A DNA stretch of 23,326 bases from the IMG/VR virus record IMGVR_UViG_3300037427_000292, positions 1-23,326 of that record; one strand, given 5' to 3'. Of the stretch, positions 627 through 19,840 are shown in pieces. Position 1 is the stretch's first letter. Each line of letters opens with the position of its first letter. The notes below the pieces were generated by a model, which was not told the origin of the DNA, did not search any database, and saw only the letters and a program-made list of their open reading frames with translations. Source of the stretch: a virus. The position numbers and the translations under genes are program-made.

Positions 627-3587
627 ATGCCTTTAATTACTTCTGCAATCCCAAACCTTATTAATGGGGTTAGTCAACAACCGCCTGCCTTGAGGCTGGC
701 ATCACAAGCAGAAGAAGTTATTAATTGTATGTCGAGTCCAATCGAAGGATTAAAGAAGAGGCCGCCATTAAATAATGTTGCTCGCTTATTTATTGAAAAC
801 AAATCAACAGTCCGACCATTTGTTCATATGGTTTCAAGGACTAATGATATTAACTACATCATCATTATTCAAGATGGTGCAATTAAGGTAGCAAACCTAG
901 ACGGAACACTTACAACTCCTGCAACACCAGACGGAGTTGACTACCTAGATGTAACTGGTCATCCCTCAGAGATGTTCAGGGTTGCATCTATTGCTGACTA
1001 TACATTCATTGTTAACAAAGAGAAGGAAGTGGCTATGTCCACCGACTTGTCACCAGCATCAATCACCAATCCATCAGCGATGGTGTTCATTAAGGTTGCA
1101 AACTATGACACTGAATACAGCGTTACATTAAATGGTGTAACTAAAAGCTATACAACACCTCCTGCTGGTGGAGAAAAGATTGAATGTTCTTATTCTCAAG
1201 GAGCCAACAGTTCTACTGTCGGTATAAATGCAACAGACCATGGATTACTGCCAGGAGATAAATTTAAGATTAGTTTTCCTACTGCATCAGGTGGAGTAGC
1301 AGGTACTTACGAGGTAGGCTCCGCTGGTACAGATTCTTTTACTTACACAGCAGGATCACAAAACGATTCAAGTGTTAACTCTGGTAATTGCACAGTTACA
1401 ACACAAAAAAAATTATCAACAATTACAATTGCAGATGAGTTAGCAGCAAAATTACATGGAAATGGATTCAATGTTAATAACGATGACTACATAATACGAA
1501 TCACTAAGACAGATGGAAGTGATTACACATTAACAAGCAAAGACGACAAGACAGGAGAAGCAACCAAGGTAATTAAAGGTGTTGTCGATGACTTAGATGA
1601 CTTACCTATCAAGGCTTATGACGGTTTCATTGTTAAAGTACAAGGCTCTCAAGCTACTCAATACGATGATTACTATGTGAAGTTTGTAGTTAACGCAGCC
1701 TTCCCACCTAGTATTTCTTCTTCTGGTACGAACACTCCAACAGATATATATGGTGATGGGGTATGGAAAGAGACAGTAGCACCAGGGATAAAATACAGAT
1801 TTGACGAGGCAACAATGCCTCATGTATTAGTTAGAAATTCAAACGGTACTTTTACATTTCAAAAATATATAAAGGGAGAAAATACTGCCACCTATGCACA
1901 GTCAGGAACAACAGTTACTGTTACCAAAGCAAATCATAAATTAGAAAGTGGAGATCTTCTATTCATTAGACCTTCTACTGGTACTAATACAGCAGCTAAC
2001 ACAGGTGTCTTTCCTATTAGACCGGTTACTGCAAATACATTTACATTTACATCAGGAGCAAACCAAACCACTAACGGCAATACAATCTATGGAACTACGT
2101 GGTCAGGTCGTATAGCTGGTGATGAGAAGACAGCCCTAGAGCCTACGTTTGCAGGTAGAACAATACAAAACTTAAATATGTTTAGGAATAGATTAATAAT
2201 GCTGTCGGAAGAAAATGTCATCCTTTCTGCTAGTGACGATCATGGACGCTTCTGGCCTGAAACTGTTCAAACTATGGTGGACAGTGATCCAGTAGATCTT
2301 GCTTGTGGCGGTAGCTCTATCAATATTCTCCTATCTACTGTCGCCTTTGCTAACACTCTTCTCTTGTTCAGCAGGAATGCTCAGTTCAGATTAGATGCAG
2401 GACTAAACGTAGGTTCTGCCTTAACGCCTAGCACAGCAACAATTACACAGATGACCTCCTTTGATATGGATACATCTGTTGACCCGATAGCTGTTGGTCG
2501 TAACACGTATTTCCCTATTACTAAAGGAGGCTTTAGTGGACTAAGAGAATTCTTTCTTCCTGACTCCAGTGGATCAGTACCTTTATCAGAAGACGTAACA
2601 TCCAGTATCCCTAGGTATATACCGACAAACTTATGTAACCTTATCTCTGCTGTGGCAGAAGATGCTGTTGCAATGCTTAGCCTTGATCAGCCCAAGAGGA
2701 TTTATCTTTACAAGTTCTTCTTTGAAGAAGATACAAAGCTTCAATCGTCTTGGTCTTACTGGGAAGTTAGTGGTGCAAAGAAAATAATAGGCGCTGCAAT
2801 TAAAGGTAGTGATTTATATGTGCTTACTGAATATGACGAGGATGGAACTTCATCTCAATCAGGGACTTACCTAGAGAAAGTATCATTAAGACCTGAACAA
2901 GTAGACCCAGGAACAGAGATAGAAATACTACTAGATAGAAAGATTACTGAAACAGAAGTTACATCGACAAGTCTTAATAATGCTGGTGGTCTAGGTGTAG
3001 AAACTGTTATCACTCTTCCTTACCCTATCAACACTGGGGCAGACATGATTGTAGTAGGAAGATACGAGGCAGGTAATACTCTCCTAAGACATGGACAAGT
3101 TATTGAGCCACAGTCTCAAACATCTAATACGATCACAGTTCTTGGAGACTTAAAGACAGTTCCAAGTTCAGGTGACAATGCAGGTAAGACACCACGCTTC
3201 TTTGTCGGAGAAAGATACACTATGACTTACGAGTTCAGCACTCCATATATAAAAGAACAGCCGCAAGGTGGTGGTGTTGCATTAGCAGCAGGGCCGAAAT
3301 TACAGATGAGAACGTGGACTGTAATCTTTGATGAGTCGTCAGCCTTTGAGTTAAAGGTTACTCCTGCAAGTAGAGACACAAACACTTATCCATATAACGG
3401 AATCATCGTTGGTGAAGCTCCTCCACTTATCGGAGATCCTTCAGTTCTTACAGGATCTTTCCGTGTTCCTGTGATGACAAGCAATATAGATACTAAGATA
3501 GTTATATCCTCTACAAGTCCACTACCTTGTCGATTCCAATCAGCCGAATGGGAAGGGTTCTATCATACGAGAGCGAAAAGGAAGTAG
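627..3587 (+). CDS. gp12: Tail tubular protein B / tail nozzle (T7 gp12-like)
   Basis: At 986 aa this is longer than T7 gp12 (794 aa), the nozzle below the gp11 ring. The N-terminal signature NLINGVSQQPPALRLASQAE, followed by EGLKKRPP, is the hallmark of the family (T7 has GGISQQPDILRYPDQ and EGLQKRPP). A second conserved block around residues 515-560 contains FRNRLIMLSEENV, FWPE and DSDPVDLA. Much of the extra length sits in two inserted small beta-type segments, roughly residues 185-255 and 415-487. They share an H-(G/K)-L-x-x-GD core, a G-x-(Y/F)-x-(V/I) step and a final FT(Y/F)T, and look like two copies of one domain. They may be surface decorations of the nozzle. The 3' end overlaps the next gene by 40 bases. 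Gene identity is secure; the role of the insertions is inferred. Confidence 0.97.
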   Translation: MPLITSAIPNLINGVSQQPPALRLASQAEEVINCMSSPIEGLKKRPPLNNVARLFIENKSTVRPFVHMVSRTNDINYIIIIQDGAIKVANLDGTLTTPATPDGVDYLDVTGHPSEMFRVASIADYTFIVNKEKEVAMSTDLSPASITNPSAMVFIKVANYDTEYSVTLNGVTKSYTTPPAGGEKIECSYSQGANSSTVGINATDHGLLPGDKFKISFPTASGGVAGTYEVGSAGTDSFTYTAGSQNDSSVNSGNCTVTTQKKLSTITIADELAAKLHGNGFNVNNDDYIIRITKTDGSDYTLTSKDDKTGEATKVIKGVVDDLDDLPIKAYDGFIVKVQGSQATQYDDYYVKFVVNAAFPPSISSSGTNTPTDIYGDGVWKETVAPGIKYRFDEATMPHVLVRNSNGTFTFQKYIKGENTATYAQSGTTVTVTKANHKLESGDLLFIRPSTGTNTAANTGVFPIRPVTANTFTFTSGANQTTNGNTIYGTTWSGRIAGDEKTALEPTFAGRTIQNLNMFRNRLIMLSEENVILSASDDHGRFWPETVQTMVDSDPVDLACGGSSINILLSTVAFANTLLLFSRNAQFRLDAGLNVGSALTPSTATITQMTSFDMDTSVDPIAVGRNTYFPITKGGFSGLREFFLPDSSGSVPLSEDVTSSIPRYIPTNLCNLISAVAEDAVAMLSLDQPKRIYLYKFFFEEDTKLQSSWSYWEVSGAKKIIGAAIKGSDLYVLTEYDEDGTSSQSGTYLEKVSLRPEQVDPGTEIEILLDRKITETEVTSTSLNNAGGLGVETVITLPYPINTGADMIVVGRYEAGNTLLRHGQVIEPQSQTSNTITVLGDLKTVPSSGDNAGKTPRFFVGERYTMTYEFSTPYIKEQPQGGGVALAAGPKLQMRTWTVIFDESSAFELKVTPASRDTNTYPYNGIIVGEAPPLIGDPSVLTGSFRVPVMTSNIDTKIVISSTSPLPCRFQSAEWEGFYHTRAKRK

Positions 3588-4045
3588 CTTATCAAAGACG
3601 TACAGAGTTAGAAGATATTAGAATTATTGGTGAGAACATGAGAGATGAGGACATAGCTGAGATCAGAGCACAGTCAGGACTGACACCCATAGCTAGTTTG
3701 TTCTACTGCTTCTTTAAGAGTAACCCCTGTATGACTATGGTTAGCAGGCATGGACACCCAATGGGTATGTGGGGTGTTGTACCTGAATCAGAGACATCTG
3801 GTCGTATATGGATGTTGGGTTGTCAGTCAATGTTGGATGATCCAAGTGATAAGCGTACGTTCTTAAGACGATCTAAGATAGAACTAGACAAGATTATTCA
3901 GGAGTATCCTGTATTATTTAATGTAGTAGATGCTAGAAACAAAGTTCATGTCAGATGGCTTCAGTGGATGGGATTTACATTCATCAAAAAGCACTCAGAA
4001 TATGGGCCAGAGAGTCGTCTGTTCTATGAGTTCGTGAGGATTTAA
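3548..4045 (+). CDS. gp13: GNAT-fold internal virion protein (T7 gp13-like)
   Basis: This is a 165-aa protein in the position of T7 gp13 (138 aa), between gp12 and gp14. The TELEDIRIIGENMRDEDIAEI segment followed by a short helix (AQSGLTPIASLF) is typical of the acetyltransferase-like gp13 group of podoviruses. A GMWGVVPESETSGRIWMLG strand pair and a WLQWMGFTFIKKHSEYG C-terminus fit the GNAT fold. The R/Q-x-x-G-x-G/A acetyl-CoA loop is not obvious, so enzymatic activity is doubtful. T7 gp13 is known to be needed for virion morphogenesis. A TTG at 3527 is also in frame; I prefer the ATG at 3548, giving a 40-base overlap with gp12. The internal ATG at 3638 would cut off the conserved TELEDIRIIGEN segment. 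Confidence 0.85.
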   Translation: MGRVLSYESEKEVAYQRRTELEDIRIIGENMRDEDIAEIRAQSGLTPIASLFYCFFKSNPCMTMVSRHGHPMGMWGVVPESETSGRIWMLGCQSMLDDPSDKRTFLRRSKIELDKIIQEYPVLFNVVDARNKVHVRWLQWMGFTFIKKHSEYGPESRLFYEFVRI

Positions 4046-4047
4046 TT

Positions 4048-4776
4048 ATGTGTGATCCCGTAACAGCCAGCGTAGTAATGGGGGTCATGTCTGCTGGCCT
4101 CCAGATCATGCAGCAGCAGGCAGCGACTAGAGCACAGAACGCACAGATAGATTTTGAAAACATGCAGGCACAGCAGGAGTATGAATACTCTGTGCTACAA
4201 ACTGATGCAAACAGAACAGGAGAAGAACAGCAAAGACAGTTGCAAGAAGATCTGATAGCACAGAATGAATACCTTGCAAACGAAGCATACGAGAGTGATA
4301 TTGCACAATTAAATCTACAACTAATGCAAGAACAAGAAGCAGCAGGACAAGCCAAAAGAGGAGCAGCGTTAGAAGCTATGGAAGCTAAAGGTGAAATACT
4401 TGCAGCAGGTCGTTTCGGTAATTCAATTCAAAACTTAATTGCAGACGCAAGGCGAGAACAAGCAGCCTTTGACTATGCGACATCACAAAATTTAGCTTTT
4501 GTCGGCAAGCAGATACAAGAACAGAAGAGAGGTTCAGGGGTAGAAAGAGCTAGTCGGATTGCAAGTCAACAACCATACTTAGAGCGAACGTACTTAGATC
4601 CGTTGAAGCCAATGAAGCGAGGACATGTTAGTGGCCCTGGATTCTTGGGAGTATTAAGTGCTGGATTAAGCGGTGCTAGTACTGGCTTAAACACTTACTC
4701 AGCAGGGGTGCAAGCTGGTATCTGGCCTAAAGGAAACGCTGGCCCGAAACCGCCTATTCTACCTAGAGGGAAATGA
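4048..4776 (+). CDS. gp14: Internal virion / ejection protein (T7 gp14-like)
   Basis: This 242-aa protein occupies the gp14 position (T7 gp14 is 196 aa). It has the typical organisation: MC at the N-terminus, a short hydrophobic stretch (residues about 7-25), and a long Gln/Ala/Glu-rich helical middle from about residue 25 to 165. Near the C-terminus is an RTYLDPLKPMKRG linker into a Gly/Ala/Ser-rich hydrophobic segment, like the VLDPLAIMGSSAASAYASG region of T7 gp14. In T7, gp14 is ejected first and forms a pore in the outer membrane. A good ribosome binding site, GAGGA at 4036-4040, sits seven bases from the ATG. The stop overlaps the next start as ATGA. Identification rests on position, architecture and short motifs rather than high identity. 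Confidence 0.86.
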   Translation: MCDPVTASVVMGVMSAGLQIMQQQAATRAQNAQIDFENMQAQQEYEYSVLQTDANRTGEEQQRQLQEDLIAQNEYLANEAYESDIAQLNLQLMQEQEAAGQAKRGAALEAMEAKGEILAAGRFGNSIQNLIADARREQAAFDYATSQNLAFVGKQIQEQKRGSGVERASRIASQQPYLERTYLDPLKPMKRGHVSGPGFLGVLSAGLSGASTGLNTYSAGVQAGIWPKGNAGPKPPILPRGK

Positions 4777-7118
4777 AACCAGCACTAACTAAAAAAACAT
4801 CAAGTCGCTTAATGGGTGGCCCATCAATGGGCGGTGCTTCAACTCCCTTCCAAGAGCTATCAATAAATACACCCAAGTTACAGCCTCAAGCTACACCTGT
4901 TACTTCCTTTGCTCAAGCAAGTAAGCCTAACGCACCTGGTGCACCTGTACTTAGCAAGCCTCAGTTAACACCAGAGCCAGCAGAGATAACCAATCTCGAA
5001 AGACTAGCGAACGACCTTGGTTCTTTAAACCAAAACTTAAAACAATTTGGATCTGCTGCTATTCAGTTCGCAGGAGTAAGAGATACGGAAAGGAGGGAAG
5101 ATGCTAAAGCTTTGAGCCGTGTTTCTTACGGTCAATTCCCAGGACAGTCATTACTTGATTACAGAGATAAGGTCGAGAAACGAGTTAAATCACACCCAGA
5201 GGATACAGAAGCAAAAGCAATGCTGGATTATATTCAGTCATTGAATCCTGTAACTTTAAAATACGCAGAGCAATACCACCAAGCAGCCCAACTTAGAAAC
5301 AAATTCGACACTATTGAATCTACCTATAACAAGACAAGTTCTATAGGCGAAGTAGCTATTGAGACTTTAAGTGTTAACAGTCCAGAGTTTCAACAATGGA
5401 AAGGCGAAACACTAGCGGTAAACATTGAAGATGCAAAGATTAGAAAAGAAATAGAACCTTACCAATTAGATGCTCATCAAAAATTAAATAGAGCACAAGC
5501 GGCAAAGAACTCAGATTATAAATTTAGACAATACAGGCAGAAAACTGAAACACTCCTTGCTACTAATTTCAAGTCAAACGAAACACAACCAGAAGACTTA
5601 GCTGCGTCATTCACTGGAACACTGACTGAGTATAGAAAGATTGCAGGAGTAGAAAAGTATCAGGAATTTGTAAAAACAATTCCTAATCAATTAGCTGTCG
5701 CTGCTGTTGATGCAGGAAGAATGTATATATTAGATAACGGTCAGAGAATATCTGCTTCAGAGCCAATACCAGAAGGTAGAACTGTCGCTAGCGAGACAAT
5801 AGATGCAACGACTTCAAGATTATATTTACAAAAAGCACTTGAAACTTACGAGCTAATACAAGCTGGCCCTAACGGTGAATTGCTTTCTACAAGATTAGAT
5901 CCAGGTGCAAGAGAAAACTTAGAGCTAGAGATATTAAAAGTACAGGCAGATATTAAAAACAAATATACAAACTACAATAAAGACTTAGGCGAACAATCTG
6001 CAACTAGACACTCAGCTACAGCAGGATTAAACGATTCAAAAACATACGATGATATTGAAACTTCTAACGCAGCACTGCGAAGAGCTGTTGATGGTGTTAC
6101 AAGCGACCCAACTCTTAGAGGCAATCAAGCAGCTATAAATAAAGGAATTAAATCTGTATCAGATCTACACAAAACTAATACAGCGATTTACTCAGCACCA
6201 CAGCAAAAAGTATTTCAAGATAGAGCACAAGAAATAGTAGATGACCCTTACCTAACCAGCACAGAGAAGAGGCTTGGAATACAGAACTTAGTACAGCAAG
6301 GATTATCAAATCGAAATGCTGGCCCTTTCTATGGTTCTATCAACAAGCAACGCTCAGAATACGATGCTACAGAAGGATACGACAAGCTAGCAAGAGAAAG
6401 GCTTACTGCTAAAGATGGCTTGCAAAGCAGGCTAATGAAAGCAATAGCAACAAGAGATGGCAACTCCAATCCTGACCAGCTAACCAGCAAGCAGAACGAT
6501 GAATACAGTGACATGATTGTCGCTCTGACAAACAAAAGACAAGCAAACAGAAGGCGTGTCTTTACTCAAGAACGTCCAGAAGGACTTTCTGATAATGAAT
6601 GGTTGGCACAGCAAGCAGATGAATATAGAACATCAGATAGAAATATAATTACCAAATTCCAAGAAGAGGTTGAAGCAACTGAAGCAGCCTATGCACAAGC
6701 ACAAGCTAAGAAAATTCAGATAACAAATTTAGATACAGTCTTTAGTACCGACAGAAGAGGAAAAAGCAAAATAACTTTAGTTACTAAAAAGAAATGGAAA
6801 AATTCTGTCGGCAATACGGCAATTCTTTCGACTGAAGAGTTTGAGAAGCACTTTACAGATTTCTGGAAGACTGGATCTCTTAGCAAAGAAATGATTCAGC
6901 TTTTTAAAGCTATTGGGTACAACAAGAAAAAAGGTGAGCTAGTGACTGACTTCTTTAGAAAACAATATTCTGTCCATTATCCTAATAGGGTTATTAAAGC
7001 TGGAGGAAAGATAGATACAGCGTTGAAATTCCTAGAAAAGAAAAATCTTCAAAGCGGTAGAAACATATTCAAAAGACAAGGCAGACTTGATACACCTAGA
7101 ACTGTCACCAGCAGTTAG
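4773..7118 (+). CDS. gp15: Internal virion / ejection protein (T7 gp15-like)
   Basis: At 781 aa this is close to the 747 aa of T7 gp15 and lies between gp14-like and gp16-like genes. T7 gp15 belongs to the internal core and, with gp16, forms the conduit across the periplasm during ejection. The first 75 residues are low in complexity and rich in Pro, Ser and Thr. After that the protein is almost entirely predicted helix, rich in Gln, Lys and Glu, with no cysteine, signal peptide or membrane segment that I can see. The C-terminus is basic. The start overlaps the previous stop (ATGA at 4773), which implies translational coupling. The assignment is by position, size and composition; I see no catalytic motif. 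Confidence 0.85.
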   Translation: MKPALTKKTSSRLMGGPSMGGASTPFQELSINTPKLQPQATPVTSFAQASKPNAPGAPVLSKPQLTPEPAEITNLERLANDLGSLNQNLKQFGSAAIQFAGVRDTERREDAKALSRVSYGQFPGQSLLDYRDKVEKRVKSHPEDTEAKAMLDYIQSLNPVTLKYAEQYHQAAQLRNKFDTIESTYNKTSSIGEVAIETLSVNSPEFQQWKGETLAVNIEDAKIRKEIEPYQLDAHQKLNRAQAAKNSDYKFRQYRQKTETLLATNFKSNETQPEDLAASFTGTLTEYRKIAGVEKYQEFVKTIPNQLAVAAVDAGRMYILDNGQRISASEPIPEGRTVASETIDATTSRLYLQKALETYELIQAGPNGELLSTRLDPGARENLELEILKVQADIKNKYTNYNKDLGEQSATRHSATAGLNDSKTYDDIETSNAALRRAVDGVTSDPTLRGNQAAINKGIKSVSDLHKTNTAIYSAPQQKVFQDRAQEIVDDPYLTSTEKRLGIQNLVQQGLSNRNAGPFYGSINKQRSEYDATEGYDKLARERLTAKDGLQSRLMKAIATRDGNSNPDQLTSKQNDEYSDMIVALTNKRQANRRRVFTQERPEGLSDNEWLAQQADEYRTSDRNIITKFQEEVEATEAAYAQAQAKKIQITNLDTVFSTDRRGKSKITLVTKKKWKNSVGNTAILSTEEFEKHFTDFWKTGSLSKEMIQLFKAIGYNKKKGELVTDFFRKQYSVHYPNRVIKAGGKIDTALKFLEKKNLQSGRNIFKRQGRLDTPRTVTSS

Positions 7119-7154
7119 CTAGTTTACCTCTAAACCTTTACCTCCCCAGTTCAA

Positions 7155-10100
7155 ATGACAGACGAAAAAAAAGAAGGTTTTACCTACGAAACAAGAGATG
7201 ACGGAATAACTGAAGTTGATTGGGAAGGTGAAGTTTATCAGCCTTCTGAATTTGAAGCTCGTGACGTAGCAGCAGGGGGAGGTGCTTTCAATCCTATGAA
7301 GCATGTTCCTGGGCTATCTTTCACCGAAACACTTGGGGAAGGAATTACTCACGGTGTAGCAGGATATATAAAAGAAGGGATGGAGTCAGGATTCTTTAGT
7401 GGTGAAGCAGTAAAAGCAGGAATGGACAGAGGCAGTGAATACATTAGGCACGACCTAGAGAAAGGAGGGCTAGGAAGATCAACTAGCAAAATGGCGTTTG
7501 GTCTTGGTCGAGATGTTATTCAACAATCAGCAAACAGAGTTGCAGGCTTTCTTGATCCAGACAGAACGATTGCAGATGGAGATGTAGGAATATTTTTTGG
7601 AGAACCACTAGCTCCTATCTCTATGAATCCTGTAGAGAAATTTGGACAACACGCAGCAGGTTATGCGGCTCTTTGGTTTTCAGGTGGAGGTCTTATAAAA
7701 TGGGCAGCACCTAAAGCATTAGCACTTCCAGGGGTAGCAAAAGCCACATCCAAGGTCGCACCATTAATTCAAAAGCTAACCCCAGGGGCACAGAAGATTT
7801 TACAAGGAGCCTCTACTAAGGCTGGAAATTTAAGCAAAATAAAAATTGGTAATGCAAATATTCCATTTACAGGGATGCCTTGGCAGCAAGCTGTCTTGGG
7901 TGCAGGAAAGCTATACGCAGATGGCTTAGTTCCAGGGTTTATTTATGACTACACCTTTACCGAAGTAGGGCCAACAGGTCAGTACGAAGAGTTAGAGAAT
8001 GGTATGCAGAAATGGATAGCAGATAATAACTGGACGCTTGAAAGAATCACAGACGACACAAAACTATCTGACGCTTATTTGCAAACTGCTGCCGTAGGAA
8101 CTCTATACGGAGGATTGTTTAACGGAATATTTAAAACTCCTAGTGCTTACAAGGCTTTTAATAAATATAGAAACTTCAGAAAGCTTGAAAAACAAAGAAT
8201 AGAAGGACAGAAGTTAGCACAACTTCTTGATGCAAAAAACCAAGGAGATGCACCAATAAAAGAAAGGCTTGCAAATCTTACTGTGCAAGAAAAGAGAAGA
8301 TTGATAGCACAAGGCATCATGCACCCAGATGACTTCAAGCAAGGCGAACTCTTTAGTCCTGAAAAATATGCAGAACTAGAAAGGCTTGATTTAATCGTTA
8401 GAGAAGATGCACCAAGAGCAGAATCCATTATTGCCGCAACACCAACTGACGCAGAGATGGTAGGAGAAGCGGCTGCAACAGGACAGGCTTTGCAAAAAGC
8501 AGCACAAGAAGGCGAGATAGATGTACATACTCAACCTGATCTTGACCTCAACGGTGAGCCAAACACAAAAGTAAGTCTTGACCAGAACCCAGGGACAAAG
8601 CCTCTTGCAAGGCAAACACGGATGGAGAAGACATCTAATTTATTTGTCGATCCAGAAACTTATCAATACAAGGCAGACGCAGATCCAAAAACAGGATCAG
8701 TTGGATCTATTGACCCTAAAACTGCATACAACCCTAGACTTGCTGGCTACATTACTGTTTGGAAAAACCCAGCAGACGGTAAAACTTATGTTGTCAATGG
8801 ACATAACAGACACGCAAAAGCAGTACAAGAAGGAATTGAAGATCAGCTAGTTTGGGATATTTCAGACGAAGCCGCTACAGCAGCAGACGCAAGAAGAATA
8901 GCTGCAACTGACAATATTGTTGACGGCAGAGGAACAGCGTTAGACGCAGCCAAGCTCTTTAGAGAATCAGATCTAACGAAAGAGCAGTGGTTAGAAAGAG
9001 GCGTAAGTCTTCGTGGTGAAATAGGCAATGTCGGGTTTGGGCTTTCTCAACTTCCAGAAGATGTTTACAAGGGAGTCGTACAAGGAAGTAAGGACTTTTA
9101 CAAGAAAGCAGCACTAATTGGACAGGCGAATCTAGGAGAAGAAGTAACTAGAGACTTATATAAAACATTCAAAAAAACACCTGCTGTTACTCTTGAGACA
9201 ATTCAGGAAGCGATTGTTGTCGCTAGAGATGCACAGGTAGGTAAAGGAGATCCTAGCCTGTTTGATTTCCTTGAGGACGGAGGTAAGGAATTTAAAGCGT
9301 TATTAGCAGATCAAGAAACTAACTTTTTAAAACTAACAAGAACAAGAGTTCTCCTGAAGAAGCGACTAAAAGAAACAATAGACGCTCTTAAAGGTGATTT
9401 AAAAGGAGCAGATACAGAGACAGCAAAGGCAAAGAAAAGAGCAGGGACAAAGATAGGGCCAAAGACTCCCAAAGATCTCCAAGTAGCACAAGAAGTCTTG
9501 CAACGCTTTGATCTTGCTTTGGCTAACCCAGATAGCGAAGCTTCTAAAGTTTTCAGGAAAATAATAGAGAAGCAAGGCAAAAAGAAATTTTCCTTAACCA
9601 CAGCAAAATCAGTAATTAAAGAACACATGGAAGAGCTAAGAGAAGCTCTTGAAGATTCACCAGTATTCCCAGGGGATAAGACACCAGTAAAACCTGTCAA
9701 GTCTCCAAAAGCTAAAGCAAGAGTACGCAGAGCCTCTAAGAAAGTTACGCAAGAAGCTGCTAAAGAAGAAGCTGTACTAGGAGATCAAAGATTCCAAGCA
9801 CCTGAAGTACCTCCTAAACCTGAACCAATATCGACAGCCGTAACAAAAGCAGATAAGAAAACACCTATCTCTGCTTTCTTAAGACAAGCTCCAGAGGAGA
9901 TGCAAGGAGAGATTGCGATACAAAGATTGCTTGATGCAATGAATAAGTTTAATGATGGATTCAAGAGGGAAGGTAGAACTTCTATTGATACTGTCGGTGA
10001 TTTAGCCAACCTCTTGAATGTTGCAAGAGTTGCTACTGAAGAATCAGTGCAGAAAGCATTGAGAGATGTCGAAAAGATCTTTGTCTTCTTGCAGCAAGAC

Positions 10101-13100
10101 ACTGCTGACGTACTTCCATTTGGAAGAACAATTTTGAAGATGGCTTCAGAGGATAGAAAAGCTTTGTTATTAGATAGAGCAGGAAACCTTGATGCTGATA
10201 TTCAAGCTTTAGGGCCAGAGCCTAAGAAACCAAGGCGTTCAAGGAATAAAACACCTGAAGCTATTAAAGCTTTTGATGAAAGAAATCGTATTTACAACGA
10301 ATACTGGAAGAAGAGAAACGCATTAGAAGAACAGAAAGGTCTTATTGATCCTTGGGACGAAGAAATTAATAATGTTAAGGATGAAGATTTAGACAAGCCT
10401 TTATCCATTCTTCCTGAGTTTGCTCGCAAGACTGATCTTGGCAATGGAGTTACATCTAAGCTTAGACAAGAGGTTGCTTTCCTTGCAGAGCTAAGAAAGA
10501 TTGTCAAAGAGGTTGCAGGTGTAGATGTTCAAGTTGAAATTCGTCCAACGCTAGAGGGATACCATGACGCAGGATCTGCTGCTGCGTACGGAACTCAGGA
10601 AGGAACTTTCTTTACAGCCTATGGTCAGTTTGGCCCTAGAGAAATCACAGGAGAACTTGATGATTTAGTTCTTTTGTCGATGGGTTCTAAGGAGTATGGA
10701 AGGTTGTGGAGTCAAAGAGATATGGTAATGGCTGCCTACCATGAATCATTCCATAGAATACAAACTAGATTCTTAACAGCTAGAGAGTTAAGACTTTTAC
10801 AGCGAAACGACAAAGCAATTAGAAAGCTTGCAGCAAGAGTAGTAGACGCACAACTAAAAACAAAAGGCTCAGATTTTGCTCGTCAACTACTAGATGGAAC
10901 AATTTCTAGTGATGAAGCACAGGCTATTGCTTTCTCTGGTTGGTGGCAATTTGGTGATCTTTATAAGCAAGCTACATGGGCAGAGCCATTTAGAAAACTT
11001 GCCGAGATTACTCAGAGAATTGCGAACTTCTTAAAAACAAGAAAGTTCAATACATGGGAAGAGATCTTTGAAGAATCTTTCTACGGAGAAATGTCTCAAA
11101 GACCAGAGCTAAGAGGCCCAGACAAGAAAGCCAACATGAGAGCAAGGCAAGCACAGAAAGGTACAAAGAAATCGCTTACTGCTCCTAATGGCCCAATGAT
11201 GTCGGTTAATAACAACAGTATGCCGCCAGACATGGGTGATGGTGATCCTGACTTTGCAGTGAGATTTGCAAGATTGCTTGAAGATAATAAGGAGAGAATT
11301 GCTAGTGGAGAAATCACAAGAGCACAGTTATGGGCTGAAAATAACTATCAAAAAGTTAGAAGTGAATCAGGTAAATATGTTTACAACTATCAAAGCGAAG
11401 ACCTTTTAGAAGGTATGAACGCCATGACCAGAGCAGAAGCTAGGTCAAGGGCAGAACTTACTGGTGCAACACAGTACCTTACAACTATGGATGGGGTGGA
11501 AGTCCAACGACTTAACCATAAATGGTTTGAAGATAGAGGTGCGGACGGTAGTGGGATTCTTTCAGGACTTAAATCTTTAACCAAAGGATTCCAAGAGTAT
11601 GAAATTGGTGCATTGCATAGAGCGATGGACTTTGCCGACAAGCTTCAACTAAAAGCACAGATTGAGGCAACAAAATGGAAAGATGTAGACGCAGATCCAA
11701 CACTAGACAAGCGTATTCAGTTAGCTCGCTTGGTAACTTCTGCTGATTCAGCAAGAAGGATGCACTTAGCGATTATGAATATCACAAGAAGATGGGGGCA
11801 GCTTGGTCAAGAAATGCAGCTACCTAGAGATATAGATACTTATGAATTACCAGAGATGGCTTGGTTACCTGAAGTTGCTGAAGAGGTAAGTGACGGCCCT
11901 CCTCCAACTGGAAGTGTTGTCGAACAAGCGATTGCAGATGAGCTACGTGTTCCTGCAGGTACTAACCCTGCAATGGAAGAGCTAGCCGACAAGTTCTTAG
12001 GAGTTAGAGAAGCGTTAGAAACAGGAGAAATAGATATAGATGCAACTGTTTCAGCAGATGAAATTGCTGACACGATGTTAATACTAGGAGAATCACCAGG
12101 GTCAGCAGAGAAAACCTTTAACCACCTAAAAGAGCTTGATCCAGCAGAAGCACAAGGTCAATGGATAAAAGGATTACACATGCTGAGAAGTAGCAACTTA
12201 ATTAGTGGTGGTGTGACTGCAACAAAAGCTTCTGTTAACGGAATCTTCAATATGAACTTACTAGCGATAGAGCAAGCTGGTGGATTCCTTATGCAGGGTG
12301 ATTACGAAAGAGCGTTGTACTCGGCACAAATGATTGGAAGCTACTTCAATAACTTAAGAATGGGATTCAGAAATGCTGCTATAGGATTCAAGACAGGTAG
12401 ACCAATAGGAAATTTAGACAGAACAACTATTGATGCTCTTGGCAAAGCTGCTGAAGTTGATGCTCAAGGAGAACTTATAGCTCAAAACAGAAGGACAGGA
12501 TTAACAGTAAATACATTGGACATGGAAGAGAAATTTGCCAAGACGAGCACTGGCAAACTTTTCAATGCTTTATGGCAAGCATTAGGAACACCAGGAATAA
12601 GACTTGCTGTAACTGTTGACTCCTTCAACAGCACAGTAGCTGGATGGAGCTACGAGTTCTTTAGGCACATGCCCAGAGGAATGGAGCTAGCAGTTAACAG
12701 AGGACACAAGAAATACAGTAAGGAAGCATTTGAAGAAGCCTACGCATACGCTCAGAAGAGAGTTGATGGCGCAGTTAAAGATGCAGTTATAGACGGAAAG
12801 AACTTAACTGAAGTCGCATTAGATAGCCCACACGCTCAAGACTTTATGGATGCGGTCAACTTTACCGAGAACATACAAGCGACAATGGAAACAAGGAGTA
12901 TTGAAGATGGTTTTAACAAAGGAAAAGCACAAGGATTAGAAGGTCAAGAGCTACTTGAGTATGCACAGAACTGGGTCAAAGAAGGCGACTGGCTGCAAAA
13001 AGTGGCTCATGGAATGACAAATGACTGGGCTGTAACCCCTGGAAGAATTGGTTCAATCCCAGGAGTTCTTTTAACAGAAGGAGCAAAGATGCCTTTAGGT

Positions 13101-14477
13101 ATTGGCCCTGTTGTTAAATTTGTCCAACCATTTATGAGAGTGCCTACAAATATTCTTAAGGCAGTTGCAAGAAGAACGCCAGCAGCAGTTCTTGTGGATA
13201 CATGGTGGAGAGATATTGCAAGTAGCGACCCAGGTGCTAGGGCAAGAGCGATGGGGCAAGTAGTAATGGGAAGCAGTGCCTTGGCTTTGCTTTGGGGTGC
13301 GAATAATATGGGCAGAATGAGAAGCAACGGAGGAGGGCCGAGAGAATATGCAGCAAGAGAGAAATGGTTAAAAGATAGGCAAATGCCTTACAGCATCCAG
13401 TTCTGGGATGACGATGCAAATTACTGGGGTGCTCCTATATCAATGGCAGCACTAGAACCGTTCTCAACATTATTTGGAGCCTTGGGTGATTACAACGATG
13501 CACAAGCAATGATGACAAATGAAGAAAGAGATGCTTGTGCAGAGTCTTTATGTCTCGACATTATCAGGATGCAAGCAGGTGGCTTGTTAAGTCAGACCTA
13601 CTTCACTGGTATTAGTGAACTTGTCGATGCTGCCTTTGATAAGAATATGGTCACTAGCGGATCGAACAGACAGCAAGCAATGGAAAGGTTCTTGTATAGA
13701 ACAATTTCGACAATGATTCCTTACTCTTCTGCTTTAAGACAAGCAAGGCAGGAAGTAGATCAAACTCCTAGAAGAATTGAGCCTGACACTATAGAGACAG
13801 GGATGATGAGTTATTGGAACGAAACTTGGGCAACTATCAAGAACGGAATCCCTGGCATGTCAGAGGAAAACCCTCCAATACTTGACTGGTCTTCACCTGG
13901 GGCAGAGCCAGTACAAGCACCTCACATCCTGTACTCAAGAGATATGGCTGAAAACTATCCTTGGATGGCAGCCGTTGCTCAGTACACGCCACCTTTCGGA
14001 GCTTTTAAACGAGGCAGGCAAATAGATGATCCCATAACACAGGTCTTGGTTAATCTTCACGGAAAAGGAACAGCGTTCTTAGGGCCAGTTGCAAGCGACT
14101 TCCAACGAAAGGATTTATATTTGTCGCCTTCAGAGTTGAACGAGTACAGACGTATATTTGCAACAACTAAGATTAGCGGCCTTACGTGGAGAGACAGGAT
14201 GATGCAGCTAATAAGTACAGAAAATTGGCAAGCTTTAGGCAGAATGGATGAACAAGAAGGTATAAGCTCTAAGGAACCAAGCAGACAAGCGGCTCAAGTT
14301 CAAAAGTTAATTACTGAGTACAAGAAAGAAGCTAAGAAAAACTTCAAGCTATACACAGCTAAAGGAAGATTGATTGCTGACGAAGAAAAAAAATCAAAAA
14401 AAAGAAAGACTCAAACAGAAGTTATAATGCAAAATAAGAGTACTACGTCAGAATTTAACCAGAAGGTTAACTACTAA
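7155..14477 (+). CDS. gp16: Giant internal core protein (gp16-like) with ParB-like, zincin and LPD38-like domains
   Basis: This 2440-aa protein is the largest in the window; T7 gp16 has 1318 aa. Its position after gp15 and before the tail fibre makes it the ejected core protein. The N-terminus has Ala/Gly-rich hydrophobic stretches (about residues 168-200 and 310-330). Residues about 490-670 resemble the DdrB-type ParB-like domain: VWKNPADGKTYVVNGHNRH, with NGHNRH at 548-553, then ADARRIAATDNIVDGRGTAL. A Lys/Pro-rich linker (about 836-900) follows. Residues about 1100-1300 look like a zincin, with HESFH at 1196-1200 after a short helix, a possible third ligand Glu1254 in DEAQAIAF, and the LTARELRLL segment between them. 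Residues about 1985-2055 (KFVQPFMRVPTNILKAVARR, then a hydrophobic helix) resemble the LPD38 domain of polyvalent proteins. I find no T7-type lytic transglycosylase motif. A 36-base gap without Shine-Dalgarno precedes the ATG. Domain calls are by recalled motif; activity is untested. Confidence 0.9.
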   Translation: MTDEKKEGFTYETRDDGITEVDWEGEVYQPSEFEARDVAAGGGAFNPMKHVPGLSFTETLGEGITHGVAGYIKEGMESGFFSGEAVKAGMDRGSEYIRHDLEKGGLGRSTSKMAFGLGRDVIQQSANRVAGFLDPDRTIADGDVGIFFGEPLAPISMNPVEKFGQHAAGYAALWFSGGGLIKWAAPKALALPGVAKATSKVAPLIQKLTPGAQKILQGASTKAGNLSKIKIGNANIPFTGMPWQQAVLGAGKLYADGLVPGFIYDYTFTEVGPTGQYEELENGMQKWIADNNWTLERITDDTKLSDAYLQTAAVGTLYGGLFNGIFKTPSAYKAFNKYRNFRKLEKQRIEGQKLAQLLDAKNQGDAPIKERLANLTVQEKRRLIAQGIMHPDDFKQGELFSPEKYAELERLDLIVREDAPRAESIIAATPTDAEMVGEAAATGQALQKAAQEGEIDVHTQPDLDLNGEPNTKVSLDQNPGTKPLARQTRMEKTSNLFVDPETYQYKADADPKTGSVGSIDPKTAYNPRLAGYITVWKNPADGKTYVVNGHNRHAKAVQEGIEDQLVWDISDEAATAADARRIAATDNIVDGRGTALDAAKLFRESDLTKEQWLERGVSLRGEIGNVGFGLSQLPEDVYKGVVQGSKDFYKKAALIGQANLGEEVTRDLYKTFKKTPAVTLETIQEAIVVARDAQVGKGDPSLFDFLEDGGKEFKALLADQETNFLKLTRTRVLLKKRLKETIDALKGDLKGADTETAKAKKRAGTKIGPKTPKDLQVAQEVLQRFDLALANPDSEASKVFRKIIEKQGKKKFSLTTAKSVIKEHMEELREALEDSPVFPGDKTPVKPVKSPKAKARVRRASKKVTQEAAKEEAVLGDQRFQAPEVPPKPEPISTAVTKADKKTPISAFLRQAPEEMQGEIAIQRLLDAMNKFNDGFKREGRTSIDTVGDLANLLNVARVATEESVQKALRDVEKIFVFLQQDTADVLPFGRTILKMASEDRKALLLDRAGNLDADIQALGPEPKKPRRSRNKTPEAIKAFDERNRIYNEYWKKRNALEEQKGLIDPWDEEINNVKDEDLDKPLSILPEFARKTDLGNGVTSKLRQEVAFLAELRKIVKEVAGVDVQVEIRPTLEGYHDAGSAAAYGTQEGTFFTAYGQFGPREITGELDDLVLLSMGSKEYGRLWSQRDMVMAAYHESFHRIQTRFLTARELRLLQRNDKAIRKLAARVVDAQLKTKGSDFARQLLDGTISSDEAQAIAFSGWWQFGDLYKQATWAEPFRKLAEITQRIANFLKTRKFNTWEEIFEESFYGEMSQRPELRGPDKKANMRARQAQKGTKKSLTAPNGPMMSVNNNSMPPDMGDGDPDFAVRFARLLEDNKERIASGEITRAQLWAENNYQKVRSESGKYVYNYQSEDLLEGMNAMTRAEARSRAELTGATQYLTTMDGVEVQRLNHKWFEDRGADGSGILSGLKSLTKGFQEYEIGALHRAMDFADKLQLKAQIEATKWKDVDADPTLDKRIQLARLVTSADSARRMHLAIMNITRRWGQLGQEMQLPRDIDTYELPEMAWLPEVAEEVSDGPPPTGSVVEQAIADELRVPAGTNPAMEELADKFLGVREALETGEIDIDATVSADEIADTMLILGESPGSAEKTFNHLKELDPAEAQGQWIKGLHMLRSSNLISGGVTATKASVNGIFNMNLLAIEQAGGFLMQGDYERALYSAQMIGSYFNNLRMGFRNAAIGFKTGRPIGNLDRTTIDALGKAAEVDAQGELIAQNRRTGLTVNTLDMEEKFAKTSTGKLFNALWQALGTPGIRLAVTVDSFNSTVAGWSYEFFRHMPRGMELAVNRGHKKYSKEAFEEAYAYAQKRVDGAVKDAVIDGKNLTEVALDSPHAQDFMDAVNFTENIQATMETRSIEDGFNKGKAQGLEGQELLEYAQNWVKEGDWLQKVAHGMTNDWAVTPGRIGSIPGVLLTEGAKMPLGIGPVVKFVQPFMRVPTNILKAVARRTPAAVLVDTWWRDIASSDPGARARAMGQVVMGSSALALLWGANNMGRMRSNGGGPREYAAREKWLKDRQMPYSIQFWDDDANYWGAPISMAALEPFSTLFGALGDYNDAQAMMTNEERDACAESLCLDIIRMQAGGLLSQTYFTGISELVDAAFDKNMVTSGSNRQQAMERFLYRTISTMIPYSSALRQARQEVDQTPRRIEPDTIETGMMSYWNETWATIKNGIPGMSEENPPILDWSSPGAEPVQAPHILYSRDMAENYPWMAAVAQYTPPFGAFKRGRQIDDPITQVLVNLHGKGTAFLGPVASDFQRKDLYLSPSELNEYRRIFATTKISGLTWRDRMMQLISTENWQALGRMDEQEGISSKEPSRQAAQVQKLITEYKKEAKKNFKLYTAKGRLIADEEKKSKKRKTQTEVIMQNKSTTSEFNQKVNY

Positions 14478-14480
14478 GCC

Positions 14481-17400
14481 ATGAGTTACACACCATTTGC
14501 GTACATAGTAAATTCTTCGTCAGCACAGGGTACTACTGACTTTCAGTTCACCTTCCCTTACATCGAAGAATCACATATTCAGGTTTTCCTCAACTACGCC
14601 GAGATCACTCAAGGGTCAGGAGGTGCCCAGTACCAAGTAATAACCAACGTATCTCCTAAACTGATACGACTTAATACAGGTATAACGTCAGCAAACTTAA
14701 GAGTAGAAATTAGAAGAAACTCATCACTTGCTACACCTCTTGTCGATTATGCAGATGGTTCAACCCTTACTGCTAATGACTTAGATACAAGTGCTTTACA
14801 GAGTTTGTATATAGACCAGGAGCTAAAAGACAACCAAAGCAAAACAGTCAGTGTTAACGAAACCACAGGACTTCCTACTTTAAACAGCCAAAGATTAACC
14901 AATGTTGCTGACCCAACAGCAGCACAGGATGCAGCAACTAAGAACTATATCGACACAAAGCAATTCACTTCTAGTCAGATTCAAGACGGAACACTTGTAA
15001 ATGCAGATGTAAATGCAAGTGCAGCAATAGCCGGAACAAAGATAAGTCCTAATTTTGGTTCTCAGAATATAGTTACGTCAGGAACAGTTGATGGTAGAGA
15101 TGTATCTAACGATGGAATCAAACTAGATAGTATTGAAACTGGTGCTACAGCAGATCAAACAAACGCAGAGATAAGAGCAGCAGTAGAAGCAGCTAGCGAT
15201 TCAAATGTATTTACTGACGCTGATCATTCAAAGCTAAACGCTATAGAAGCCAGTGCGACTGCTGACCAGACGAACGCAGAAATAAGAACAGCAGTTGAGG
15301 CGGCTACTGACTCTAATGTATTCACTGACGCTGACCACAGCAAACTAAACGCTATAGAAGCTAGTGCTACAGCAGATCAAACTAATGCAGAAATTAGAAC
15401 AGCAGTCGAAGCAGCAACAGATTCAAATGTCTTTACAGATGCTGACCACTCTAAGCTAAATGCAATAGAAGCTTCTGCTACAGCAGATCAGACAGCTAGT
15501 GAAATTAAGACATTACTACAATCCGATAAACTAACCAGTTCTGAAATAGCAACAGGTGCATTAGATGGAAGATATTACACAGAAACAGAGTCAGATGCTA
15601 GATACTTCAATATAAGTACTGGTGACACTATTAAAGATGGTGATACCTTTCCAGACAATGACACAACAATAGCTACAACTGCTGCTATCAATGACAGGAT
15701 TATTGATCTTGTTGATGATGTGGGTGGTTTTGTACCAATAGCAAATGAAACATCTTTTCCTAACGCTAACCCTGACGTTAATAACGGGGCTGGAACTCTT
15801 GTATCTATTAAAGCTCTCAGCAGCAACCTCACCTCTAATGGATCTGGAGTTGCAACCATTTCTAACGGCACTGTCGGCAACTCAACAGTCACCATTACTG
15901 GTTTAGCTAATAGCACAACATATGCTGCTAACTTTGGTCTTATTGTAGAAACAACTTCTACATTAAATACTTACGCATTCCATAGACAAGTACCTATAGC
16001 AACAGAAGTTTCAACAGTTGCTGGAAGCATTTCAAATGTTAATACGGTTGCTGGATCTATATCTAATGTCAATACCGTAGCTGGTAATAACTCTAATATT
16101 AATACTGTTGCTGGTGTATCAAGTAACGTCACAACAGTAGCTGGAGTAGCAAGTAATGTTACTACGGTTGCTGGTATATCTAGTGATGTAACAGCAGTAG
16201 CTGGTGATGCAACAGATATTGGAGCCGTTGCTGCTAAAGCTACAGAGATAGGAAGATTAGGTACAGCAGATGCTGTGTCTGATTTAAATACATTAGGTAC
16301 TACAGCTATTGTTAGCGATCTAGATACTTGTGCTACAAACGTATCGAATATAAATACAGCCGCTGGATCAATATCCAATATTAATACAGTAGCTACCAAT
16401 ATCTCTAACGTTAATGACTTTTCTGATAAGTACCGTGTAGCAAGTTCAGCACCAACATCTAGCTTAGATACAGGTGATCTTTACTTTGATACAAGTGCTA
16501 ATGAACTAAAGGTATATAACGGATCAGCATGGCAAGGTGGTGTAACAGCTACTGGTAACTTAGCTGGATTAGGAGCTAATACGTTTACTGGTAATCAGAG
16601 TCTTGGAGATAATAAGAAGGTTATCTTTGGGACTGGTGGGGATTTAGAGATCTACCATGATGGCTCCAACTCATACATAGATGATGCGGGTACAGGTAAT
16701 TTATATCTCAGAGGATCAGCTTCTATTGAATTCAGAAAGGCAGGTGCTACTGAAAAGATGTTATATGCCGAGCCTGATGCAGAGGTACAACTCTATTACG
16801 ACAACAGTAAGAAGCTTGAGACGACGAGTTATGGCGTTTTAATTTCATCGAGACTAAATGCACAAACTATTAGTATTGAAGATTGGAATAGTACCCATGA
16901 AACTGGTGCTATAAAACTGGGGACTGGTAATGATCTCCAGATCTACCATGCTGGTACATATAGCGTTATAACAAATGCAACTGGTGATTTATATATAAAT
17001 AATAGTGCCGATACTATTATTAAACCAGCTAATGATTGTTTCATAAAGCCACAAGGCGGTGAAGATGGAATAAAAGTTATTGGTAACGGAGGCGTAGAAC
17101 TCTATTACGACAACGCTAAGAAGTTAGAGACAAAGAGTAATGGTGTTGAAATTACTGGAAATTGTTGGGCTGATGCTTTTTATCTTGGAGATAATGAAAA
17201 ATCATATTGGGGTACTGGAGATGATCTCCAGCTCTACCATGATGGAAGTAATTCATACATAGATAACAATACGGGAACTTTAAATATACTTTCTGCGGAT
17301 GAGATACGGTTATGGGTTGATGACGATGAATATGCTGTTAAAGCTGTTAATAACGGCTCAGTAGAACTCTATTACGACGGTAGTAAGAAGTTTGCCACAA

Positions 17401-18515
17401 AATCAAATGGAGCGTTTGTTCATGGTGATGCTAATGGAGCTTATTTGGTTCTTGCTGACACTAGTAGTAACTATTGTTATCAACTAATAGGATTTGACGC
17501 TAATGCTTCTGCTGCTGGTGGTCGCTTAGTTCTTGCAGATGCTGATGGCGGTACTGTTCTTGATATGAGACAAGCTGGAAATAATATATTTTGTAAAAAC
17601 AATTTCAATCTAAATGTTGATAATTTAAAGCTTCAATTAGGAGCAGGAGATGATCTCCAGATTTACCATGATGGAACGGACAGTCATATAAAAAACAGTA
17701 CAGGTAACTTATATTTTGAACAAGCTTACTTTAGAGTTAGAAATGCAGCTAATACTGAACACCTTATTACTGCTAATGAAAACGGAGCCGTAGAGCTCTA
17801 TTACGACAACAGTAAGAAGTTTGAGACGACGAGTACAGGAGTAACAATAACTGGTTCTCAAAGTAAATTAGTAGGTGATGTACGTTTTGATAACGGAACA
17901 AATACAGAAAAAGATATTTATTGGGACGAATCAGAAAACAGATTAAATTGGTTTGATGATGTTAAAGCTACATTCGGAAATAGTAATGATCTCCAGATCT
18001 ACCATGATGGCTCAAATAGTTATATTCACGATAATGGTACTGGTCAATTAATAGTTAGATCAGATGGATTCCAAGTTAGAAACTCTGCGGCAACCGAATA
18101 TCATATAGCCTGCAATAATAATGCAGCCGTAGAACTCTATTACGACAACAGTAAGAAGTTAGAGACTAGCTCTACAGGCGTTACGGTAACTGGAACGGTA
18201 TCAGACAGCAAAGGCGATTTAAGAAAGATACCTATCAATACTCAAGGCTCTGCTTATACTCTTGTCGCTGGAGATGCTGGGAAATTTATAAGTGCTAGTG
18301 CAAATATTACATGGGCTGACAGCGTTTTTAGTGCTGGTGATGCTGTAACTATTGTCAATAATAGTAACTCAAATATAACAATTACTAAAGGAAGTAATAT
18401 GTATAATACAGCCGATGGCAATAATGCAAACCGCACTCTAGCAGCAAGAGGAATGGCTACTATCTTATGGGTTTCTGCATCTGCTGCCTACATCTCAGGT
18501 TCGGGGTTAACTTAA
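14481..18515 (+). CDS. gp17: Tail fibre with T7 gp17-type N-terminus and three kinds of internal repeat
   Basis: This 1344-aa protein begins with the T7 tail-fibre anchor domain (residues 1 to about 130: PFAYIVNSSSAQGTTDFQFTFPYI, later DGSTLTANDLDTSALQSLYI), which attaches the fibre to the tail. The shaft follows in order. Residues 222-332 hold three 37-residue repeats plus a partial fourth. Residues 512-591 hold eight 10-residue repeats of the T-V-A-G type, with further copies to about 645. A conserved DLYFDTSANELKVYNGSAW segment lies near residues 665-690. Residues about 719-1235 hold five modules, each with a DLQIYHDG strand and, 45-53 residues later, a (V)ELYYDNSKK strand. The last 100 residues form a compact domain ending VSASAAYISGSGLT, the likely distal part. 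The fibre is presumably trimeric and reads the host surface. Its stop overlaps the next start (TAATG). Confidence 0.96.
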   Translation: MSYTPFAYIVNSSSAQGTTDFQFTFPYIEESHIQVFLNYAEITQGSGGAQYQVITNVSPKLIRLNTGITSANLRVEIRRNSSLATPLVDYADGSTLTANDLDTSALQSLYIDQELKDNQSKTVSVNETTGLPTLNSQRLTNVADPTAAQDAATKNYIDTKQFTSSQIQDGTLVNADVNASAAIAGTKISPNFGSQNIVTSGTVDGRDVSNDGIKLDSIETGATADQTNAEIRAAVEAASDSNVFTDADHSKLNAIEASATADQTNAEIRTAVEAATDSNVFTDADHSKLNAIEASATADQTNAEIRTAVEAATDSNVFTDADHSKLNAIEASATADQTASEIKTLLQSDKLTSSEIATGALDGRYYTETESDARYFNISTGDTIKDGDTFPDNDTTIATTAAINDRIIDLVDDVGGFVPIANETSFPNANPDVNNGAGTLVSIKALSSNLTSNGSGVATISNGTVGNSTVTITGLANSTTYAANFGLIVETTSTLNTYAFHRQVPIATEVSTVAGSISNVNTVAGSISNVNTVAGNNSNINTVAGVSSNVTTVAGVASNVTTVAGISSDVTAVAGDATDIGAVAAKATEIGRLGTADAVSDLNTLGTTAIVSDLDTCATNVSNINTAAGSISNINTVATNISNVNDFSDKYRVASSAPTSSLDTGDLYFDTSANELKVYNGSAWQGGVTATGNLAGLGANTFTGNQSLGDNKKVIFGTGGDLEIYHDGSNSYIDDAGTGNLYLRGSASIEFRKAGATEKMLYAEPDAEVQLYYDNSKKLETTSYGVLISSRLNAQTISIEDWNSTHETGAIKLGTGNDLQIYHAGTYSVITNATGDLYINNSADTIIKPANDCFIKPQGGEDGIKVIGNGGVELYYDNAKKLETKSNGVEITGNCWADAFYLGDNEKSYWGTGDDLQLYHDGSNSYIDNNTGTLNILSADEIRLWVDDDEYAVKAVNNGSVELYYDGSKKFATKSNGAFVHGDANGAYLVLADTSSNYCYQLIGFDANASAAGGRLVLADADGGTVLDMRQAGNNIFCKNNFNLNVDNLKLQLGAGDDLQIYHDGTDSHIKNSTGNLYFEQAYFRVRNAANTEHLITANENGAVELYYDNSKKFETTSTGVTITGSQSKLVGDVRFDNGTNTEKDIYWDESENRLNWFDDVKATFGNSNDLQIYHDGSNSYIHDNGTGQLIVRSDGFQVRNSAATEYHIACNNNAAVELYYDNSKKLETSSTGVTVTGTVSDSKGDLRKIPINTQGSAYTLVAGDAGKFISASANITWADSVFSAGDAVTIVNNSNSNITITKGSNMYNTADGNNANRTLAARGMATILWVSASAAYISGSGLT
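15144..15515 (+). repeat. Three tandem 111-bp repeats plus partial fourth in the fibre gene
   Basis: Units start at 15144, 15255 and 15366, with a partial fourth from 15477. Each encodes 37 residues beginning ATADQTNAEIR and ending KLNAIEAS. Units 2 and 3 encode identical protein, yet 24 of 37 codons differ by synonymous changes, by my hand alignment. Unit 1 differs from them at two residues (RAAVEAAS instead of RTAVEAAT). This is probably a repeated segment of the trimeric shaft. Confidence 0.95.
16014..16253 (+). repeat. Eight 30-bp repeats encoding 10-residue T-V-A-G units
   Basis: Units start every 30 bases from 16014 to 16224. Each encodes a variant of TVAGSISNVN, with V/I at position 9 and small or polar residues elsewhere. 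Scattered further copies occur around 16332-16418. The units are diverged at the DNA level and lie in frame inside the fibre gene, so this is a protein shaft repeat, not a CRISPR-like array. Confidence 0.93.
16636..18180 (+). repeat. Five fibre modules with two DNA-conserved blocks each
   Basis: Five modules repeat a YHDG-type strand (YHAG in module 2) at residues 725, 822, 919, 1062 and 1174 and a YYDN/YYDG strand at residues 772, 875, 964, 1107 and 1220. The DNA for these strands is nearly invariant. The 24 bases at 16791-16814, 17796-17819 and 18135-18158, from the codon before YY through SKK, are identical; the copies at 17100 and 17367 differ by only a few bases. The sequence between blocks is strongly diverged in both DNA and protein. 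Confidence 0.93.
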
Positions 18516-19455: not shown

Positions 19456-19794
19456 ATGACAATAACTACAACTTGGGATATAACAAAACTCAATTATATG
19501 AGAGATGATCAGTATGTATTTTCTATTGATTTTACTGTATTAAGTAAAGATGATGTCTATCCTACGTTTGAATCAAAGTTTGAATCAAATGTTAGTTTAG
19601 AAAAACCAGATACATTAATACCCTACAAAGATATAACTAAAGAAACAGCTATAACATGGGTAAAAGATCGTCTTAATGAATTAAACAAAGAAGACAAGGA
19701 TAACCTTTCCACAAAAAATATCGAAGAAATTACTGAGGCTAATTTAACCTTTAAAATCATACCCACTAAACTAAGTGGAACACCTTGGGCTTAG
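19456..19794 (+). CDS. Small conserved phage protein, paralogue of the next gene
   Basis: This is a 112-aa acidic soluble protein. It shares a clear pattern with the protein encoded at 19841-20152: a Trp near the N-terminus (TTTWDI against TKTWQV), KPDTL(I/V)PY-x-D(I/L)T, then WVK-x-x-L, and a C-terminal G-x-PWA. I recognise this as a type of roughly 100-residue protein common beside tail genes of marine phages, but I know of no established function. No signal peptide or membrane segment is visible. The ATG follows the glycine-rich gene by two bases, placing it in the late tail transcript. It could be a minor virion protein or an assembly factor; neither is shown by the sequence. Confidence 0.85.
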   Translation: MTITTTWDITKLNYMRDDQYVFSIDFTVLSKDDVYPTFESKFESNVSLEKPDTLIPYKDITKETAITWVKDRLNELNKEDKDNLSTKNIEEITEANLTFKIIPTKLSGTPWA

Positions 19795-19800
19795 TAGGTA

Positions 19801-19816: not shown

Positions 19817-19840
19817 ATTAAATTTTTATTAAAAACAATC

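Follow-up and report, generated by a model that had tools for sequence, protein, structure and literature searches.

The window, an IMG/VR virus fragment of 23,326 bases, carries a 2440-residue open reading frame whose product is probably a T7-like core ejection protein that delivers a cassette of ParB and zincin domains to the host cytoplasm. The window genes run gp11-gp12-phrog_308-gp14-gp15-[2440-aa ORF]-fibre, which is the late gene order of T7 (T7 itself was compared). The first-pass annotation had made the frame about 1100 residues longer than T7 gp16, and this is confirmed (T7 gp16 has 1318 residues, an excess of 1122); the NGHNRH (548-553), HESFH (1196-1200) and Glu1254 residues named there all lie where they had been placed. 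The features are as follows.

16..624, plus strand: gp11-like tail tubular protein A (PF17212, 5e-39)
627..3587, plus strand: gp12-like nozzle (PF25675, 2e-222)
3527..4045, plus strand: small internal virion protein (phrog_308, 2.7e-37)
4048..4776, plus strand: gp14-like internal virion protein (PF24072, 5e-15)
4773..7118, plus strand: gp15-position protein, 781 aa (position and size only)
7155..14477, plus strand: large core (ejection) protein at the gp16 position, carrying the inserted cassette, 2440 aa (ORF calling; 94% identical relative L001)
7536..8144, plus strand: N-terminal chassis, residues 128-330 (homologous region in gp16/internal virion protein D of marine T7-like phages)
8175..8591, plus strand: fast-evolving linker, residues 341-479 (dN/dS 0.34 vs 0.03-0.17 elsewhere)
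8622..9254, plus strand: predicted ParB domain with nucleotide-binding and HTH lobes, residues 490-700 (AlphaFold2, Foldseek, VIA)
8796..8810, plus strand: NGHNR motif, residues 548-552 (invariant residues in alignment)
10407..11114, plus strand: predicted zincin metallopeptidase-like domain, residues 1085-1320 (AlphaFold2 model, VIA, dN/dS 0.029)
10740..10754, plus strand: HESFH, residues 1196-1200, predicted to supply zinc ligands and the general base (HExxH invariant, 18/18)
10914..10916, plus strand: Glu1254 of the E-x-[QE]-A motif, predicted to be the third zinc ligand (invariant, 18/18)
12891..14387, plus strand: C-terminal chassis, residues 1913-2411 (homology to marine gp16/internal virion protein D)
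13248..13304, plus strand: second hydrophobic zone, residues 2032-2050 (recurs in homologues; at 1.06 below threshold in the window protein)
14481..18515, plus strand: tail fibre protein (phrog_21412, 9e-103; further tail fibre families match as well)

The 2440-residue frame is under purifying selection (dN/dS of 0.12 overall relative to the 94%-identical relative), with values of 0.088 for the ParB domain, 0.34 for the linker and 0.029 for the zincin, the lowest of the whole protein. Pfam, NCBIfam, PADLOC and PDB sequence searches leave the protein without annotation; no PDB sequence match was significant (the best, ParB at 0.55 and FtsH at 0.16, were both weak), and a colicin-DNase Pfam match (E 0.19) was dismissed as chance. 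The 781-residue gp15-position protein found no family match in domain and family profile searches. The nearest named relatives of the nozzle are the Prochlorococcus P-SCSP1 phages (about 51%), which also hold the nearest named full-length homologue of the 2440-residue protein (2571 aa, 27%). A clear Shine-Dalgarno sequence was not found ahead of the ATG of this frame (7119-7154). The nozzle (627-3587) has 986 residues and its family model 794 positions, which are matched in two stretches, as in several other nozzle-bearing records, suggesting an insertion in the nozzle; its residues 191-252 show a weak endosialidase beta-barrel match (6e-4, below the cut-off). The adjacent frames 19456-19794 and 19775-20152 each match phrog_7802, of unknown function, and are likely a tandem duplication.

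Firstly, both ends of the large protein align with core proteins. Residues 128-330 match the N-terminal part of marine T7-like gp16-position proteins (hhalign probability 95%, E 2e-8), and residues 1913-2411 match the gp16-position proteins of P-SSP7, CRP roseophages, the HTVC025P pelagiphage and P-SCSP2 (hhalign ~100%, E 4.6e-39). With tblastn the C-terminus reaches P-SSP7 gene 16 (E 2e-3) and CRP-125 (E 6e-14), while the C-terminus of the homologue L030 matches the phrog_6651 internal virion protein (1.3e-18). P-SSP7 gp16 is itself assigned by synteny and size. Because the N- and C-termini both match core proteins, the ParB and zincin domains lie inside an insertion of ~1500 residues; as judged from these alignments, the extra length is an insertion between the N and C parts of a core protein. 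The surrounding synteny is conserved among relatives, a T7-type nozzle being present in 17 of the 18 records that carry the protein and lying 3.6-4.8 kb upstream of its gene in the 16 records measured.

The proposal of a gp16-like core protein therefore stands for position and for homology to marine T7-like proteins, but not for T7 gp16 itself. Gene order is shared with T7 and P-SSP7, and the C-terminus is homologous to P-SSP7 gp16; both gp16 proteins are without the cassette, unlike the window protein. Profiles of T7 gp16 relatives did not match the C-terminus, so that no homology of this region to T7 gp16 was detected, and the transglycosylase domain of T7 gp16 was not found in the 2440-residue protein. 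An LPD38-like C-terminal region, also suggested earlier, was not borne out and is rejected at the sequence level, the region matching core proteins instead: PF18857 had no match in the window protein or its homologues, and an alignment of LPD38 proteins found no hhalign match to the C-terminus. The PF18857 model is functional, matching Ruegeria phage 45A6 at 3.6e-53.

Secondly, sequence conservation and modelling give good support to residues 1085-1320 as a zincin metallopeptidase-like domain. None of the 18 sequences in alignment A7, whose homologues are only ~18-41% identical to the window, departs from His1196, Glu1197, His1200 or Glu1254; the zincin was not selected for in about half of these loci because they were found with ParB patterns only. 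In a set chosen by the C-terminus alone HExxH is kept in 54 of 57 zincin matches, the remaining three being cut off by the contig start. HExxH occurs in 1.6% of residue shuffles of the 2440-residue protein, and HExxH followed 30-80 residues downstream by E-x-[EQ]-A in 0.08%; conservation is a stronger test of the motif than residue shuffling. The AlphaFold model of the domain (pLDDT 81.4, pTM 0.79) runs from a long N-terminal helix through strands and the HExxH helix to a later helix (model residues 168-177) on which Glu1254 sits. VIA-align places the zincin domains of anthrax lethal factor first (Z 7.5, 149 residues, rmsd 4.6) and IrrE second (Z 6.4), with the N4 virion RNA polymerase far lower (Z 2.8); these scores are moderate, all below Z 8. 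Foldseek of the model against the PDB returned nothing significant (E-values above 0.1), and Pfam scans of the window protein and homologues gave no match to a curated metallopeptidase model. The lethal-factor match agrees with the result of Iyer et al., who reached lethal factor from the N4 zincin (PMC5512222). The earlier call of a zincin with HESFH and Glu1254 as third ligand is thus supported, by a zincin-like predicted fold and by an HExxH and Glu that are not freely replaced among homologues.

In BFVD the best match of the zincin model is a homologue from MedDCM-OCT-S31-C1, named in UniProt "Large polyvalent protein associated domain-containing protein"; large uncultured-phage proteins named cr4_1 and similar (A0A7M1RSI1 and others) also match by fold. 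Alignment A7 proved too divergent to scan genomes with the zincin; alignment A3, used instead, led to two loci (L123:2692-11106 and L124:3-11243), each in an alphaproteobacterial genome assembly and possibly in a prophage, where a related zincin sits in a very large protein.

The other module of the cassette, residues 490-700, is firmly predicted by modelling to be a two-lobed ParB of the ParB/Noc type. The AlphaFold2 model of residues 480-720 (pLDDT 86.5, pTM 0.77) retrieves Noc/ParB with Foldseek (E down to 9e-7, prob 1.00), followed by ParB, KorB and Spo0J, and gives VIA Z of about 10, with both the nucleotide-binding and the HTH lobe covered in several chains. The NGHNR motif (548-552) lies at what we take to be the GxRR box of ParB, and 28 sequences all agree in Asn548, Gly549, His550, Arg552 and Asn587. 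DdrB-like ParB domains are described as having an Asp/Asn at the end of strand 2 and a conserved Arg (PMC5512222); here the model strand 65-69 ends at N548 and R552 is invariant, so both traits are present. However PF18763, the DdrB model, has no match in the window protein or any homologue tested, and P1 DdrB, which itself matches PF18763 at 2e-39, gives no profile match to the window ParB (hhalign). The DdrB-type ParB of the first-pass annotation is therefore upheld in its fold and unsupported in its type, the domain being not demonstrably DdrB-type. The same ParB domain is carried by portal and minor-head/MuF-type proteins of other phages (L010, L012, L017, L045, L069, L088).

These results bear on whether the protein is literally a DdrB-ParB/MPTase-PolyVal/LPD38 polyvalent protein. 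The broad kinds of domain are the same, and the MedDCM homologue bears the polyvalent name in UniProt, but since neither PF18763 nor PF18857 finds a match in the window protein or its homologues, and hhalign finds none to P1 DdrB or the LPD38 alignment, such an identity is very improbable.

Finally, the cassette is exchanged among relatives. The homologues L060 and L030 are 72% identical in the N-terminal part, 88% in ParB, 85% over 1340-1690 and 85.5% in the C-terminus, and only 15.5% in the zincin slot, which in L060 holds an ART (DUF3990, 1e-4; ART-PolyVal, 0.006); this is a clean zincin-for-ART swap between flanks 72-88% identical. P-SCSP2 has the chassis with neither ParB nor zincin. Scanning with the C-terminus alone yielded 34 distinct complete proteins, in which all eight combinations of ParB, zincin and ART-like modules are present: ParB with zincin in 16, all three in 5, zincin alone in 3, zincin with ART in 2, ParB with ART in 2, ParB alone in 1, ART alone in 1 and none in 4, a class that may hide distant modules missed by the scan. 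The ART label is given to one type from weak Pfam matches (1e-5 to 0.006; DUF3990 at 9.5e-6 in L147) and to the other, of the P-SCSP1 lineage, from motifs alone, a PDB sequence search having given the latter no support. Within the window protein the zincin is nearer to the MPP-C lineage (41%) and the C-terminus nearer to L030 (43% vs 25%), mismatched affinities which point to mosaic exchange. The polyvalent-like string of domains proposed earlier is thus supported, with unrelated modules shuffled between relatives in eight combinations. Four further chassis (L172, L175, L181, L186) have 890-1020 residues ahead of the C-terminal match, in which neither ParB, zincin nor an ART-like module was seen and Pfam finds nothing; they may carry further modules. 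The MedDCM-OCT-S31-C1 homologue (L004:10417-18311) ends right after the zincin and is followed by a 1145-aa gene; this second gene was weak as a candidate for the missing C-terminal half (probability 15%), and the layout could, weakly, be a split chassis.

Because of the zincin-for-ART swap and the eight combinations, delivered and exchangeable modules are favoured over an obligatory role in assembly, and the evidence fits exchangeable effector modules on an ejection protein. Were the ParB and zincin folds instead non-catalytic, serving the core as structure or to organise DNA, the fact that other phages fuse ParB to their portal or minor-head/MuF-type proteins would fit, as DNA handling in the virion. 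This reading is improbable: it is exactly the zinc-site residues that are invariant despite low overall identity, and the zincin is replaced by an unrelated enzyme fold.

The favoured account of a delivered cassette takes its route from T7 gp16, which is ejected, membrane-anchored and DNA-binding, and in which two membrane regions flank the cytoplasmic DNA-binding gp16-C (PMC8954989). In 19 homologues no strong hydrophobic peak lies within about 340-1960 (window numbering), and most are near 160-330 and 2032-2055; the peaks of the window protein are weak (at most 1.09). We infer ejection, cassette topology, catalysis and targets, the first two by analogy. The large gp16-position protein of this T7-like marine phage, its cassette of ~1500 residues held between the shared chassis ends, would leave the virion through the tail as T7 gp16 does, the hydrophobic zones would anchor it in the inner membrane, and the cassette between them would face the cytoplasm. 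There the ParB module would most likely hold on to the incoming genome in a nucleotide-controlled way, and the zincin would cleave a host protein or, less likely, its own chain; in relatives the same chassis bears an ART-like module, other combinations or no module. For the zincin we give a host target an even chance, consider self-processing possible and distinctly less probable, and regard a non-catalytic role as unlikely.

Self-processing is the core of the main rival, which sees in the zincin a processing protease that acts on its own polypeptide, inside the head or once ejected, and frees the ParB and chassis parts, with no attack on the host. P1 DdrB, for which self-cutting has been proposed, combines a ParB with a C-terminal metallopeptidase and is processed (PMC5512222), and in MedDCM-OCT-S31-C1, where the zincin lies close to the end of its gene and another gene comes next, separation is tolerated. 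Against this, the N4 virion RNA polymerase has a zincin yet is packaged whole (PMC5512222), and complete chassis without zincin exist (ParB with ART, ART alone, ParB alone). Cleavage is thus not needed to use the ParB and ART modules, since zincin-less chassis carry them, and this rival is weakened; we consider it rather unlikely.

Delivery of exchangeable modules, the reading we prefer, has partial precedents. Polyvalent proteins (Iyer et al. 2017, PMC5512222) likewise bring unrelated enzyme and DNA-binding domains together in one very large phage protein, and share with the 2440-residue protein the common zincin module, ART and ParB partners, late-gene context and domain shuffling; the window protein differs in being built into a T7-like core protein, in its ParB/Noc-type rather than DdrB-type domain, and in that no match was found to the LPD38, MPTase-PolyVal and ddrB-ParB models. 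In P1 DdrB, which is incorporated in the phage head (PMC5512222), a ParB-fold domain is followed by a metallopeptidase as here, but that ParB belongs to another family and DdrB is not a podophage core protein. N4 virion RNA polymerase gp50 is also a giant podophage protein with an HExxH zincin-like part and is ejected in N4 (PMC12633501, PMC5512222); the zincin model matches it weakly in VIA (Z 2.8), and it differs in its cargo (an RNA polymerase), its family (Schitoviridae) and its chassis. Closest is the gene 21 product of P-SCSP1, a Prochlorococcus phage of the MPP-C clade: at 2571 aa it has the same position, ParB, zincin and C-terminus (~25-41% identity by domain) and, after the zincin, an extra ART-like module that the window protein lacks. 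It had been speculated to be an internal virion protein, with no domains reported (PMC9860041).

Polyvalent proteins and ejected zincins (N4) are already known; a T7-like core protein with an exchangeable slot appears to be new, a literature search having found no paper that describes one as such a chassis. Probably enzymes, too, reach the host through the entry machinery, and we infer a part for the protein in host takeover. More tentatively, and with somewhat less than even confidence, we suggest that marine T7-like phages, including the abundant MPP-C cyanophages, use the core protein as a chassis for exchangeable effectors, comparable to polymorphic toxins, with a DNA clamp and a protease or ART reaching the host cytoplasm together with the first phage DNA and acting before phage gene expression. 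In the global surface ocean nearly half of the cyanopodovirus reads come from MPP-C phages, whose core-protein gene could not be annotated by the authors of the MPP-C study (PMC9860041). The cultured P-SCSP1 phages on Prochlorococcus MED4 make a direct test feasible, and chassis bearing anything from no module to all three already exist in nature for comparison. Host takeover may start at DNA entry if a protease and a ParB clamp are part of the MPP-C core protein.
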